This document shows, one piece after another, positions 71 through 3,852 of a stretch of DNA of 64,000 nt; position 1 is the first letter of the stretch; the number at the start of each line of letters is the position of its first letter. The notes beneath the pieces were generated by a model. The model was not told where the DNA came from, did no database searches, and saw nothing but the letters and a program-made list of their open reading frames with translations. The DNA comes from Victivallales bacterium. Lineage in GTDB: Bacteria; Verrucomicrobiota; Lentisphaeria; Oligosphaerales; Oligosphaeraceae. The stretch lies in the NCBI GenBank assembly GCA_017617415.1, contig JAFZWH010000091.1, positions 62,001 through 126,000 on the forward strand. Direction: 5' to 3'. A program made the position numbers and the translations under genes.

Positions 71-727
71 ATGAAGCAAAAAGGCGTTATCTACATTCTG
101 ACGAATCCGGCGTTTCCTCAATATGTCAAGATTGGGTATGCGCAGGATTTGGAGAAACGGCTTAAGCAGCTGAATCGTAGCGAGACGATTCCGTATGCCT
201 TCCGTGCATATGCGGTGTATGATGTCGAAAGCGAACTGACCGACAAGGATCTTCATGCGATTATCGACAGCATAAACCCCGATCTGAGGACAATCGAGAA
301 CTTCGACGGCAAGAAGCGCGTCAAGGAGTTCTATGCGATGTCCGCCGAGGATGCGTATCACCTGCTGGAGTGCATTGCAAAAATCAGCGGGACCACCGAC
401 CGCCTGAAGCGCATGAAGCCAGAGGGGCACGAAATTGAAGATGAAAACACGGCGCGCGAGGTGCAGGATGCGGCGCGGCGCGGTCCGTTCCGGTTCAGCA
501 TGTGCGGAATCAGTGCCGGAGCGCAGGTCGTGTTTGTGAATGACGAGAGTAAAAAGGCTATCGTCGTGGATGATCGCCACGTCAGATTTGCCAGTGAAAC
601 CACATCTCTTTCTGCACTCGCAAAGCAGCTCCTTGGTTGTGACCATCAAGTCCAGGGAACGCTCTACTTCTCCTACAACGGCATAATCCTTGACGACATT
701 CGCAAAGAGCGGGAGGCGGGTAATTAG
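71..727 (+). CDS. GIY-YIG / T5orf172-type nuclease-like protein
   Basis: A 218-residue protein. Residues 6-40 carry the GIY-YIG core in the T5orf172 style: the G-V-I-Y-I-L opening strand, then V-K-I-G-Y, then K-R-L-K-Q-L. GIY-YIG domains cut DNA with one metal ion. The C-terminal third (about 140-205) resembles the small domain often found after T5orf172 domains and near restriction genes, ending V-Q-G-T-L-Y-F-S-Y-N-G. The ATG at 71 follows a weak AAAGG. The gene opens an accessory patch with a YhcG-type nuclease and a Fic protein, which suggests a role in defence or mobile DNA, though no restriction methylase is present. The fold assignment is fairly sure and the biological role is not. Confidence 0.75.
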   Translation: MKQKGVIYILTNPAFPQYVKIGYAQDLEKRLKQLNRSETIPYAFRAYAVYDVESELTDKDLHAIIDSINPDLRTIENFDGKKRVKEFYAMSAEDAYHLLECIAKISGTTDRLKRMKPEGHEIEDENTAREVQDAARRGPFRFSMCGISAGAQVVFVNDESKKAIVVDDRHVRFASETTSLSALAKQLLGCDHQVQGTLYFSYNGIILDDIRKEREAGN

Positions 728-839
728 AGTGAAACTAATTGAAGGGGTTGTACGAAGTAGTCGCGGAATAAGAAGGCAACCGGAAAAGATCTCTTCCTAT
801 TTTATCTATTCCATGACCACGCCAATGGAGTGAGTCCCC

Positions 840-1469
840 ATGCCACGCCGCACACAAACACCCGAATCCTCGCAGTCCATCCCCGAGATGGTGGATGAAC
901 TGACACGTCAGGAAATTGCCACTTGGTACAAGGACGGCAAGTTGACGCCTCATGGAAGGGAAATGGCGAAGTTCCTGGACCGCGCCTTTCCGGCGGAGAA
1001 GGTGGACAAGTGGGGCTTCCTTCTCACGCGCAAGGAGATAGAGGCCATCAAACGCAAGGCTGCGGAGCGGAAGCGCCTTGCGGCGGAAAACCGGGCCAAG
1101 ACGGCGGCGATCCGCAAGATTCGGGCGGACACGCGGAAGAACGGCTTCGGGCCGGAGGACGAGCTGAACGACTTCGCCAGCATCCACTGGGCTTTCATGG
1201 CGGCCCGCGACGAGCTGAAGGTCCGCGGCTTCTCGCTGGACCTGATGAACAAGCTCAAGGCGGACGTCGTGGCGCGAATCTCTCCCTGGAACATGCAGCA
1301 CCATGTGGACTACATCAAATACTTCATCTACCAGTACTACCTTTCCTGCAGCGAGCTTCACATCGCAACCCTGCCCGCCTCCCAGCAGGAAGAGGCAAGG
1401 CAAGGCTGGACGAAGATCCTGCGCCCCTTCAAGTGCCGCGAGCCGTGGCTGAGTCCATTGCGAGGCTAG
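840..1469 (+). CDS. Hypothetical protein, paired with the YhcG nuclease
   Basis: I do not recognise this 209-residue protein. It starts M-P-R-R-T, has a Lys/Arg/Ala-rich segment likely to be helical at about 60-110, and ends in a more hydrophobic, tyrosine-rich part with the run Y-I-K-Y-F-I-Y-Q-Y-Y. There is no signal peptide. A GGAG about ten bases upstream supports the ATG. The stop lies 26 bases before the YhcG-family gene, so the two are probably co-transcribed. Its first ~45 bases recur at 2639 as a diverged short ORF, suggesting the gene start was duplicated or a second copy was lost. A DNA-binding or partner role for the nuclease is only a guess. Confidence 0.6.
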   Translation: MPRRTQTPESSQSIPEMVDELTRQEIATWYKDGKLTPHGREMAKFLDRAFPAEKVDKWGFLLTRKEIEAIKRKAAERKRLAAENRAKTAAIRKIRADTRKNGFGPEDELNDFASIHWAFMAARDELKVRGFSLDLMNKLKADVVARISPWNMQHHVDYIKYFIYQYYLSCSELHIATLPASQQEEARQGWTKILRPFKCREPWLSPLRG

Positions 1470-1495
1470 ACAAACGCGAGAACAAGGAGTTTGAC

Positions 1496-2620
1496 ATGAC
1501 GAAAAAACAGACAGAACTGTCAAAGCGAAAGAGCGCGGCAAGAAGGGCAACGGGCCTTTCTTTGCAAGCGACTCCGTCGTACGACGCACTGGTCTCGGCC
1601 ATCGAAAGTCTTGTTCTTGATGCCCGCGCCGGATTGAAGGCGGCGATGAACGCCATCATGCTTCAGACATATTGGCGGACGGGGGAGTATATCGTGGAGT
1701 ATGAGCAGAACGGCTCTGACAGGGCAATCTATGGGGCCGGGTTGATGCGGCGGCTCGCGCGAGATTTGACGATCAAATTAGGGCGCGGTTTTAGCCATGC
1801 GAACCTCATCTATATGCGCAAGTTGTATGTGGTCTCACAAAAAAGTCAGACGTCTGACCTTTTCAATAAAAGCCAGACGTCTGGATTTTTGACCTGGAGC
1901 CATTATCTGGAGATTCTTCGAGCCGACGATCCACTTGAGATCGCGTTCTACGCGAAGGAGTGCGAGAATTCAAAATGGAGCGTCCGCGAACTGCATCGCC
2001 AGATGCAGTCCATGCTATTCCATCGCATTGCGCTTTCGCGGGACAAGGAAGGCGTACTTGCCTTGGCGAACAAGGGAGACCATGTTCAGAAACCGGAAGA
2101 CATTCTCCGTGACCCGTATGTTCTTGAATTCGCGGGGCTTCCTGTCGCAGAGCGTTTGAAAGAAAGTCGGCTTCACTCCGCGCTTGTCGAGCATCTGCGG
2201 GACTTCCTTCTTGAACTCGGGCGAGGATTCTCCTTTGTCGCCAGCCAATACCGCATACCGCTCAACACGGATCATCCGTGTCGGGTTGATCTTGTCTTCT
2301 ATAACTTTTTGCTCAAGTGCTTTGTCCTTATCGATCTCAAGCGCGGGATGGTCAAGCACCAGGACATCGGGCAGATGAACATGTATCTGAACTACTTCAA
2401 GTCCGAAGTAGGTGGCAAGGGCGATGCCGAACCTGTTGGAATCGTTTTGGGCGCGAACAAGGACGATCTGGTTGTGCAGTTCGCCACGCAGGGGATTTCC
2501 AACCGCCTCTTCGTAAGCAAATACCAGTTGTATTTGCCCAACGAGGACCAGTTGCGCGGCAAGTTGGCAGCATTGCTCGAAAATGCCGGTAAAGGCAAAA
2601 GGAAAAGCCATAACCAATGA
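1496..2620 (+). CDS. YhcG/DUF1016-family PD-(D/E)xK nuclease
   Basis: A 374-residue protein with the two-part YhcG layout: an N-terminal DUF1016 domain (about 25-170, with Y-W-R-T-G-E-Y-I-V and L-T-W-S-H-Y) and a C-terminal PD-(D/E)xK nuclease-like domain (about 200-350). The likely metal-binding core is R-V-D-L-V-F-Y followed by V-L-I-D-L-K. The ATG at 1496 is chosen because AAGGAG lies six bases upstream and homology begins here; the frame is open further upstream, but that part reads as a shadow of the preceding gene. Residues about 116-130 are a two-copy insert (K-S-Q-T-S-D / K-S-Q-T-S-G) encoded by perfect DNA palindromes. Related proteins sit near restriction and defence genes; the substrate here is unknown. 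Confidence 0.85.
   Translation: MTKKQTELSKRKSAARRATGLSLQATPSYDALVSAIESLVLDARAGLKAAMNAIMLQTYWRTGEYIVEYEQNGSDRAIYGAGLMRRLARDLTIKLGRGFSHANLIYMRKLYVVSQKSQTSDLFNKSQTSGFLTWSHYLEILRADDPLEIAFYAKECENSKWSVRELHRQMQSMLFHRIALSRDKEGVLALANKGDHVQKPEDILRDPYVLEFAGLPVAERLKESRLHSALVEHLRDFLLELGRGFSFVASQYRIPLNTDHPCRVDLVFYNFLLKCFVLIDLKRGMVKHQDIGQMNMYLNYFKSEVGGKGDAEPVGIVLGANKDDLVVQFATQGISNRLFVSKYQLYLPNEDQLRGKLAALLENAGKGKRKSHNQ
1845..1884. repeat. Twin palindromes inside the YhcG-family gene
   Basis: GTCAGACGTCTGAC (1845-1858) and CCAGACGTCTGG (1873-1884) are perfect palindromes sharing the core CAGACGTCTG, 28 bases apart. They encode the duplicated S-Q-T-S segment of the nuclease. Two identical 10-base palindromes in a coding region are unlikely by chance and may mark a small in-frame repeat expansion. 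Confidence 0.7.
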
Positions 2621-2774: not shown

Positions 2775-2845
2775 GGAAGTTTATCTTGCAAAATACGCAA
2801 CAGTTTTCCAAGCGATAAACTTCCTTTTAAGGCATATAAACTTCC
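2775..2845 (+). promoter_or_regulatory. Operator-like repeats upstream of the Fic gene
   Basis: GATAAACTTCC at 2814-2824 is repeated as TATAAACTTCC at 2835-2845, exactly 21 bases (two helical turns) later and ending at the ATG. The exact inverse GGAAGTTTATC lies at 2775-2785. Three phased copies directly before a gene whose product starts with a helix-turn-helix suggest autoregulation. Confidence 0.55.
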
Positions 2846-3793
2846 ATGACGGATGGAAAAGAACAAATGAATTACCTCACGATAGATGAAATTGCCGCAA
2901 ATTGGGGCATAACACCTCGTCAAGTACGCACATACTGTGCCACTGGGCGTGTCCCAGGCGCGACATTGGAACATGGCGAATGGCGGATTCCGGACAATGC
3001 CGCCAAACCGGAGCGAAAAAGTCGCCGGACATTTCCCAAGACCATTCTTGGTATTTTGAAGGCGGAACGGATCGCACGCATTTCGGGAGGACTATACCAC
3101 AGGCTCCAGATCGACCTCGCTTACAACTCCAACCACATCGAGGGCAGCCGCCTGACCCACGAGCAGACACGTTGGATTTTCGAGACCCAAACTGTCGGCG
3201 ATATTGGTGCAGACGTTCCAGTGGATGACATTGTCGAGACGGTCAATCATTTCCGAGCAGTCGATTTTGTCATCGAATCGGCTGGTGCGGCACTCACCGA
3301 ACGCTATATCAAAAGGCTTCATCGCCAGCTCAAAAGCGGAACGACCGACAGCCGCAAGGAGTGGTTTGCTGTCGGCGACTATAAGCGCCTTGACAATGTG
3401 GTTGGCGAGATGGAAACCTGTCCTGCCAAGGATGTGCACCATGAGATGTTAGCGTTGCTTGCATGGTGGAAGAACGCGGACAAGACCTTCGAGAATCTCC
3501 TTGACCTTCATGTGCGCTTTGAGCAAATACATCCTTTCCAGGATGGCAATGGTCGTGTCGGGCGGCTCATTCTTCTCAAAGAGTGCCTCAAATACGGCAT
3601 CACGCCATTTGTGATTGCGGATAAGTTCAAGCAATTCTACTATCTCGGTCTTCAGGACTGGCGCCACGGCAAGCACTTGAGACTCATGGACACCTGTCGT
3701 ACCGGACAGGACGTGTTTATTCTCGAACTTCGTCAGTTTGGACATCTGAAACTGGCGGAGAAGGCGGAAGCCGAACAAAAGACTTCGAAATAA
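2846..3793 (+). CDS. Class II Fic family protein with N-terminal helix-turn-helix
   Basis: A 315-residue protein. Residues about 8-50 form a MerR/excisionase-like helix-turn-helix (L-T-I-D-E-I-A-A-N-W-G-I-T-P-R-Q-V-R-T-Y). The Fic core follows, with the catalytic loop H-P-F-Q-D-G-N-G-R starting at His229. Such enzymes usually transfer AMP from ATP to a hydroxyl of a target protein. Before the core, S95-N-H-I-E99-G100 matches the inhibitory S/TxxxE(G/N) motif, so this is a self-restrained class II Fic rather than a toxin with a separate antitoxin. The ATG at 2846 is used; ATG 2867 (M-N-Y-L-T) is equally possible. Repeated operator-like sites end at the start codon. The target protein cannot be read from the sequence. 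Confidence 0.9.
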   Translation: MTDGKEQMNYLTIDEIAANWGITPRQVRTYCATGRVPGATLEHGEWRIPDNAAKPERKSRRTFPKTILGILKAERIARISGGLYHRLQIDLAYNSNHIEGSRLTHEQTRWIFETQTVGDIGADVPVDDIVETVNHFRAVDFVIESAGAALTERYIKRLHRQLKSGTTDSRKEWFAVGDYKRLDNVVGEMETCPAKDVHHEMLALLAWWKNADKTFENLLDLHVRFEQIHPFQDGNGRVGRLILLKECLKYGITPFVIADKFKQFYYLGLQDWRHGKHLRLMDTCRTGQDVFILELRQFGHLKLAEKAEAEQKTSK

Positions 3794-3816: not shown

Positions 3817-3852
3817 GAGTAAACTGCAACAACGAATTGTTGCAGTTTACTC
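3817..3852. repeat. Perfect 16-bp inverted repeat after the Fic gene
   Basis: GAGTAAACTGCAACAA (3817-3832), a CGAA loop, then TTGTTGCAGTTTACTC (3837-3852): a flawless 16-bp stem starting 24 bases after the Fic stop. It lacks a T-run, so it is not a textbook terminator. It may still stop or stabilise the Fic transcript, or mark the edge of the accessory patch. Confidence 0.7.

Follow-up and report, generated by a model that had tools for sequence, protein, structure and literature searches.

Predicted autoregulatory operators upstream of a class II Fic gene with an N-terminal helix-turn-helix in a Victivallales bacterium

Fic gene, encoded protein and surrounding region

The window, which is the whole 64-kb stretch of DNA that was analysed, encodes a Fic-family protein whose gene is directly preceded by an array of three short repeats (Table 1). 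Pfam analysis of the translation starting at ATG 2846 identified a Fic domain (E 1.4e-16) and an HTH_17 domain (E 1.9e-4), the latter with a profile score of 22.1 bits that lies below the gathering cut-off of 27. The AlphaFold2 model of the N-terminal helix-turn-helix (HTH) is composed of two helices (residues 6–13 and 17–25) followed by a hairpin wing (strands at residues 33–35 and 38–42), with the second helix, PRQVRTYCA, serving as the recognition helix. Two helices and a beta-hairpin wing make up the fold of the MerR/excisionase-type HTH family (HTH_17), and the modelled domain fits this fold. An earlier note on this DNA, made from the sequence alone, had proposed a DNA-binding-like N-terminal domain, which the modelled winged HTH supports, with a profile match below the gathering score.

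Table 1. Predicted features of the fic locus, in window coordinates
Feature	Position	Strand	Remarks
Distal operator half-site (predicted) GGAAGTTTATC	2775–2785	-	Exact match; inverted copy of GATAAACTTCC
Inferred promoter GCGATA (2812–2817)-N17-TATAAA (2835–2840)	2812–2840	+	By homology with relatives
Middle operator half-site (predicted) GATAAACTTCC	2814–2824	+	Exact match; pairs with the distal site, outer span 50 bp
Proximal operator half-site (predicted) TATAAACTTCC	2835–2845	+	Exact match; follows the middle site at 21 bp
Fic-family protein with N-terminal HTH, 308 aa	2867–3793	+	Conserved start ATG 2867 (MNYLTIDE...), common to relatives
Winged HTH, residues 6–42 of 308 aa	2882–2992	+	AlphaFold2 model, mean pLDDT 91.3
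Class II inhibitory motif SNHIEG, residues 88–93	3128–3145	+	S88, N89, H90, E92 and G93 identical in all 26 sequences of the alignment (window included)
Catalytic Fic motif HPFQDGNGR, residues 222–230	3530–3556	+	Invariant in 26 aligned sequences (window included)
Terminator-like hairpin downstream of fic	3817–3852	+	16-pair stem; scored on the other strand too

The Fic motif is given as HPFx[D/E]GN[G/K]R (PMC2686095) and the class II inhibitory helix, (S/T)xxxE(G/N), lies in the same chain N-terminal to the Fic core (PMC10628234). The present protein carries both the Fic motif and an inhibitory helix N-terminal to the core in the same chain; it is a class II Fic protein and is predicted to be a self-inhibited AMP-transferase. 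The self-inhibition suggested by the earlier note agrees with the inhibitory motif and its invariant key residues. The closest solved structures by sequence, which are also first by fold-search E-value, are CdFic of Clostridioides difficile (4x2c/d/e) and BT_2513 (3cuc); these match residues 71–277 and 79–258 respectively, covering the Fic core without the HTH.

The best PADLOC profile for the protein is the phage-defence candidate PDC-S04 (E 1e-93, residues 59–292), counted by PADLOC 1,628 times in cattle-rumen genomes according to PMC13356809. The SoFic profile also matches, much more weakly (E 7.4e-23). SoFic/Sofic proteins are Fic AMP-transferases linked to phage defence (PMC12249575, PMC11514479) and reportedly protect through abortive infection (PMC12249575); their control is attributed to a small antitoxin encoded downstream. 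The present gene does not fit a type II toxin-antitoxin system of the Phd-Doc type: the terminator-like hairpin directly follows fic, the inhibitory motif is present in cis and, among ORFs of at least 70 aa, no neighbour within three genes is common to more than 8/81 loci, a check that smaller antitoxins would escape. The hairpin also suggests that fic forms a single-gene transcription unit.

The region upstream of fic encodes a series of defence-type genes, located at positions 3625–10008 of L211 (the 10 kb left of the window) and at window positions 71–2620, with fic following. These encode a type I methylase with an HsdR N-terminal domain, a specificity subunit, a TIR protein (PADLOC spbK, E 3.8e-36), a 680-aa protein without a Pfam match, a T5orf172 protein (PDC-S57), a 209-aa protein of unknown function and a YhcG/DUF1016 nuclease (PDC-S02). 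Restriction-type genes are thus found near fic in the window, and judged by eye the same seems to apply to L015. An imperfect 23-nt inverted repeat, AAAAAGTCAGACGTCTGACCTTT, lies inside the YhcG nuclease gene at positions 1840–1890. A 52-nt repeat with 81% identity is found at positions 835–886 and 2634–2685, such that the start of the 209-aa gene recurs, apparently truncated, just before the Fic array; this is a possible trace of recombination.

Repeat array and its conservation in relatives

The sequence ATAAACTTCC occurs three times upstream of fic, each time exactly, at 2775–2784 on the minus strand and at 2815–2824 and 2836–2845 on the plus strand, the two direct copies being 21 bp apart from start to start. 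The first two of these copies are part of a longer inverted repeat of 11 bp, GGAAGTTTATC-N28-GATAAACTTCC (2775–2785 and 2814–2824). In the 64 kb, ATAAACTTCC is alone among 10-mers in occurring three times without overlap inside 75 bp, and clusters of this kind arose in 0/60 dinucleotide shuffles of the window when words of one or two letters were not counted. The direct pair and the inverted copy therefore lie exactly where the earlier note had placed them, and their clustering is unique in the window. The start codon that had been taken to adjoin the array fared differently: ATG 2846 directly follows the last copy, but alignment with relatives places the start at ATG 2867, and a purine-rich ribosome-binding site is located between the third copy and this codon.

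Relatives were collected as the best 80 of 280, fetched from genome contigs, and further ones came from the class of the window (12 of 197 genomes, its own included) and from its phylum (21 of 387 genomes, with L094 as the query). Six of the loci L083–L115 were added, most of the others being repeats of known loci, HTH-less or of the Cro/C1 type, and one locus with an identical upstream region (L072) was dropped, leaving 84 loci. L001, L082 and L106 are the window itself. Removal of L065 (which has lost its start but has the sites) and L068 (a chimeric N-terminus without an array) gave an 82-protein comparison; L015 and L020 are without upstream DNA, and 79 loci were scored, window included. 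Among plasmid records with a relative, 74/78 belong to Helicobacter, and in the 20 plasmid records listed the matches begin at query residues 53–64, after the HTH region.

Each upstream region was scored by an unbiased repeat statistic, which takes the best 10-mer in the 110 bp upstream and sums its three best sites. A search for the repeats upstream of Fic orthologues had been set beforehand as the refutation test of the proposed array, and the array was found to be kept: the statistic reached 28–30 in 59/79 loci (78 relatives and the window) versus 43/402 control upstream regions from the same loci. The difference corresponds to a Mann-Whitney p of 1e-25 for relatives that are not independent of one another, and only 9/79 loci, with 3/402 controls, lie above the 95th percentile of the controls (29). 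In six viral loci where TTGCCGAT sites can be seen, the score is just 26–28, and the statistic therefore misses some arrays. It replaced a count of exact 7-mer repeats that proved too crude, with at least three copies in 21/79 loci and p of at most 0.05 in 19/79.

Homologues without the HTH do not exhibit the array, as 9/9 scored loci of this kind reach 24–26, like the controls. Their starts were set by eye, and L089 (unclear frame), L092 (cut) and L118 (same upstream region as L117) were left unscored. Two HTH-less homologues, L090 and L091, have GGAAGTATATTTC in common shortly before the start. Proteins with a different HTH are preceded by a different array: L093 and L094 have a Cro/C1-type HTH (Pfam HTH_26) and arrays of CTTTACTT sites, a third repeat type, that score 30 in 2/2 loci. 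L094 encodes a full Fic domain, and the frame of L093 stops before the Fic motif, with no Fic domain found by Pfam. Genome G048 encodes two Fic genes, the A-type L083 (see below) behind an A array and the Cro/C1-type L094 behind its own array.

Operator classes and their apparent exchange between Fic proteins

The relatives were divided into classes by recognition helix and site, with class A tried before class B and a single B site accepted. Class A comprises 14 of the 82 proteins, window included, with a recognition helix of the form R[QR][VA]R.YC. The inverted GATAAACTTCC pair is present in 13 of these 14 loci, again with the window included and at most two mismatches allowed, with a span of 49–51 bp from GG to CC; the exception, L016, has an A-type helix and degenerate sites. 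Relative to the start codon, the 13 class-A loci carry the distal half-site at -83 to -98, and nine of them (window included) also have a third, direct site 21–22 bp after the pair. Class B is defined by the helix RNYC and has TTGCCGATA-type sites in 58/58 compared proteins under lenient scoring (at least one TTGCCGATA site with at most one mismatch; L065 and L068, both RNYC, left out). The class-B inverted pair spans 47 bp in 35/55 pairs, with the rest at 44–50 bp and one at 76 bp. The description of the array as phased in the earlier note thus holds for the direct spacing of 21–22 bp, but the inverted pair, at 47–51 bp, is the more widely kept feature. Two smaller helix groups, VQ[IL]HC (6) and VRLRC (4), have TTTCG- or TTCCGC-like sites by eye, and the sites of classes C and D were likewise read by eye. 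L068 carries an unrelated N-terminus (KALVTSNGNLKVAAAMLGISERTVRNYC, around 567) in place of the first HTH helix, retains RNYC and has no array; it is either a natural fusion or an assembly chimera.

A maximum likelihood tree was built from the enzyme core alone, with the HTH columns left out, for 43 of the 82 rows picked by hand, and class labels were set by hand from helix and sites. Classes A and C need at least two changes each, on well-supported branches. All four classes together require 4 changes versus a minimum of 3, just one above the minimum, and therefore few independent switches are proven. Operator similarity averaged 8.54 of 9 for A–A pairs with core identity below 0.70 (n=24), and A–C pairs with core identity of at least 0.70 averaged 7.78 (n=55), below the distant A–A pairs. 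In a partial Mantel test of 25 loci, the correlation of operator with HTH given the core was 0.51 (0/2000 permutations as high) and that of operator with core given the HTH was 0.32. By these measures, the class of site is tied more tightly to the HTH than to the core of the enzyme. Mutual information per column, in which residues 19 and 22 of the recognition helix reach the maximum but so do several core columns because class A versus B is confounded with phylogeny, was set aside as evidence on specificity residues.

The core of the locus L012 is 85% identical to that of L005 (class A) and 79% identical to that of L013 (class C), and its HTH is 47% identical to that of L005 and 80% identical to that of L013. 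Tandem arrays precede its one Fic gene at positions 1507–1680, A type then C type: the TTTCGC-type (C-type) array lies directly before the gene, with a complete GGAAGTTTATC/GATAAACTTCC array further upstream, and a stretch resembling a ribosome-binding site comes after each array. Read from these identities and arrays, L012 appears to be a natural replacement of HTH and operator together.

Proposed self-repression, alternatives and significance

The promoter of the window is placed under the middle and proximal sites (Table 1). We infer its position from relatives because the consensus scan of the window's plus strand does not find it: no significant promoter was identified, the elements assigned by homology are weak and the best consensus match, which lies elsewhere, is not significant. 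Among 41 non-RNYC loci examined, ten have a significant sigma70-like promoter (p-values from 60 mononucleotide shuffles), and the operator core lies inside the -35/-10 spacer in eight of these ten, the exceptions with the site outside the spacer being L014 and L019. All eight spacers are 17 bp, in a scan that allowed only 16–18 bp. The class-A locus L105 has TTGACT-N17 with TAAACTTCC inside the spacer; it is not significant alone and forms, with the clear promoters, the basis for the placement in the window. In RNYC upstream regions, the palindromic site lies over the first element of a Bacteroidetes-type promoter, TTG...TAnnTTTG, in 41/60. In the window, a transcript starting from the predicted promoter would begin near 2847, a position compatible with ATG 2867 and unfavourable to ATG 2846.

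The repeats are probably, at roughly 0.85, the operators of the N-terminal winged HTH of Fic itself, through which Fic would repress its own gene. Control of its own transcription, as the earlier note suggested, is supported by the conservation of the array, the tracking of sites with the HTH and the HTH-less loci without an array. We infer that Fic itself binds, that binding represses rather than activates and that a dimer sits on the inverted pair. In the proposed mechanism, a Fic dimer would bind the widely spaced inverted pair, with an outer span of about 50 bp, and a further protomer or dimer would bind the proximal direct site. Since the middle and proximal sites overlie the predicted promoter, bound Fic would exclude RNA polymerase and the single-gene fic transcript would be repressed. 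Fic would then be restrained in two ways: its own inhibitory helix would block the AMP-transferase, and self-repression would limit the amount of protein.

A precedent is found in CccR of Yersinia pseudotuberculosis, which belongs to the class II Fic proteins, has its HTH at the C-terminus and represses its own gene; according to PMC9755527, it binds the inverted repeats AGATAATCAT-N26-ATGATAATCT near -35 and -10 with 46 nt protected, the DNA-binding helices of its dimer are about 70 Å apart and it is secreted by the T6SS. The present system resembles CccR, as described there, in being a class II Fic protein whose HTH is part of the one polypeptide, in its widely spaced inverted repeats (50-bp span versus 46 nt) and in having these repeats over its own promoter, as seen in relatives and predicted for the window. 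The similar span of the inverted pair suggests, by analogy, a similar dimer on the DNA. The two differ in that the HTH is N-terminal here and C-terminal in CccR, and in that the array here has a third, direct site where CccR is described with one pair; the repeat sequences are unrelated. CbFic2 of Coxiella burnetii is also a class II Fic protein with an HTH, but a C-terminal one; according to PMC10628234 it AMPylates host histone H3, and its DNA binding is linked to dimerisation and a switch to deAMPylation.

An alternative is that Fic binds the array but activates its own promoter in a MerR-like manner. MerR activators bind in the -35/-10 spacer, and MerR promoters have a spacer lengthened to 19–20 bp. 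The winged HTH_17-like domain is of the MerR/excisionase kind, and the location of the site in the spacer of eight of the ten clear sigma70 promoters would suit activation, but the 17-bp spacers are not lengthened within the range scanned, the site covers the upstream box in Bacteroidetes-type promoters and CccR is a repressor, making activation improbable.

The sites could also belong to another, host-encoded regulator and lie before fic by accident, inverted repeats being common operators and binding by Fic here being a prediction. In the own genome, GATAAACTTCC with at most one mismatch occurs 28 times versus 37 for the reversed control, and its two exact copies are both inside the array. 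The pattern GGAAGTTTATYN{22,36}GATAARCTTCC is found in two places in the 197 class genomes, both just before Fic (reversed control 0), and this search found no second copy of the inverted pair in the own genome. A genome-wide regulon was rejected, as the sites are not in excess in the own genome or in the 197 class genomes. No common partner gene was identified within three genes of Fic, where the largest gene cluster is present in 8/81 loci; control of a restriction system by Fic was rejected as a general rule on the same count. With sites not in excess and no common neighbour cluster, the array belongs to this gene and not to a regulon in this genome. In viral contigs, the A pattern gave 0 matches and the B pattern gave 81, of which 5 adjoin Fic and are all 55 bp long, as is 1 of the other 76; the 9-bp inverted TTGCCGATA pattern alone is not Fic-specific. 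A host regulator is very improbable, given that the class of site changes with the Fic HTH inside a single host phylum and even inside a single genome, that the nine HTH-less homologues have no array and that the sites are not in excess elsewhere.

Still less probable is that the repeats are the ends of a small mobile element or an island recombination site. The defence region, the truncated duplicated segment just upstream of fic and flanking genes that differ between loci would be in keeping with such an element, but the distance to the start codon is near-constant within class A, the sites overlap promoters in relatives and covary in sequence with the HTH, and a second copy of the pair is absent from the own genome. 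Chance repeats in AT-rich leader DNA are scarcely credible: the whole-window count of ATAAACTTCC with one mismatch allowed is within expectation (3 versus 1.87; at least 3 in 29/100 shuffles), unremarkable because such a count ignores clustering, but the clustering is absent from 60 shuffles and the array is kept in relatives.

Autorepression by a Fic protein with an HTH has already been published for CccR; what appears new is the N-terminal architecture, its spread and the apparent co-exchange of HTH and operator. None of the literature matches listed concerned operators of N-terminal-HTH Fic proteins or such co-exchange. Such autorepression appears to extend to the branch with an N-terminal HTH, which includes records named Verrucomicrobia/Kiritimatiellae, Prevotella and other Bacteroidales, Lachnospiraceae, Selenomonas and Slackia. 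Building on self-repression, a more speculative and rather doubtful extension is a plug-in family, in which the DNA-reading head and the operator array would form one exchangeable cassette on a conserved AMP-transferase core. The inverted pair would force a dimer, so that operator occupancy would also set the state of the enzyme, the dimer on DNA being inhibited or deAMPylating. If this were true, release from the operator, for example by phage DNA processing in this defence region, would raise transcription and enzyme activity at once.

The apparent exchanges of HTH and operator give natural pairs for tests of DNA recognition and of operator control over AMP-transfer. Encoded next to a type I methylase/TIR region, Fic may illustrate how a defence enzyme, its defence role here being a candidate one, stays quiet without an antitoxin gene.
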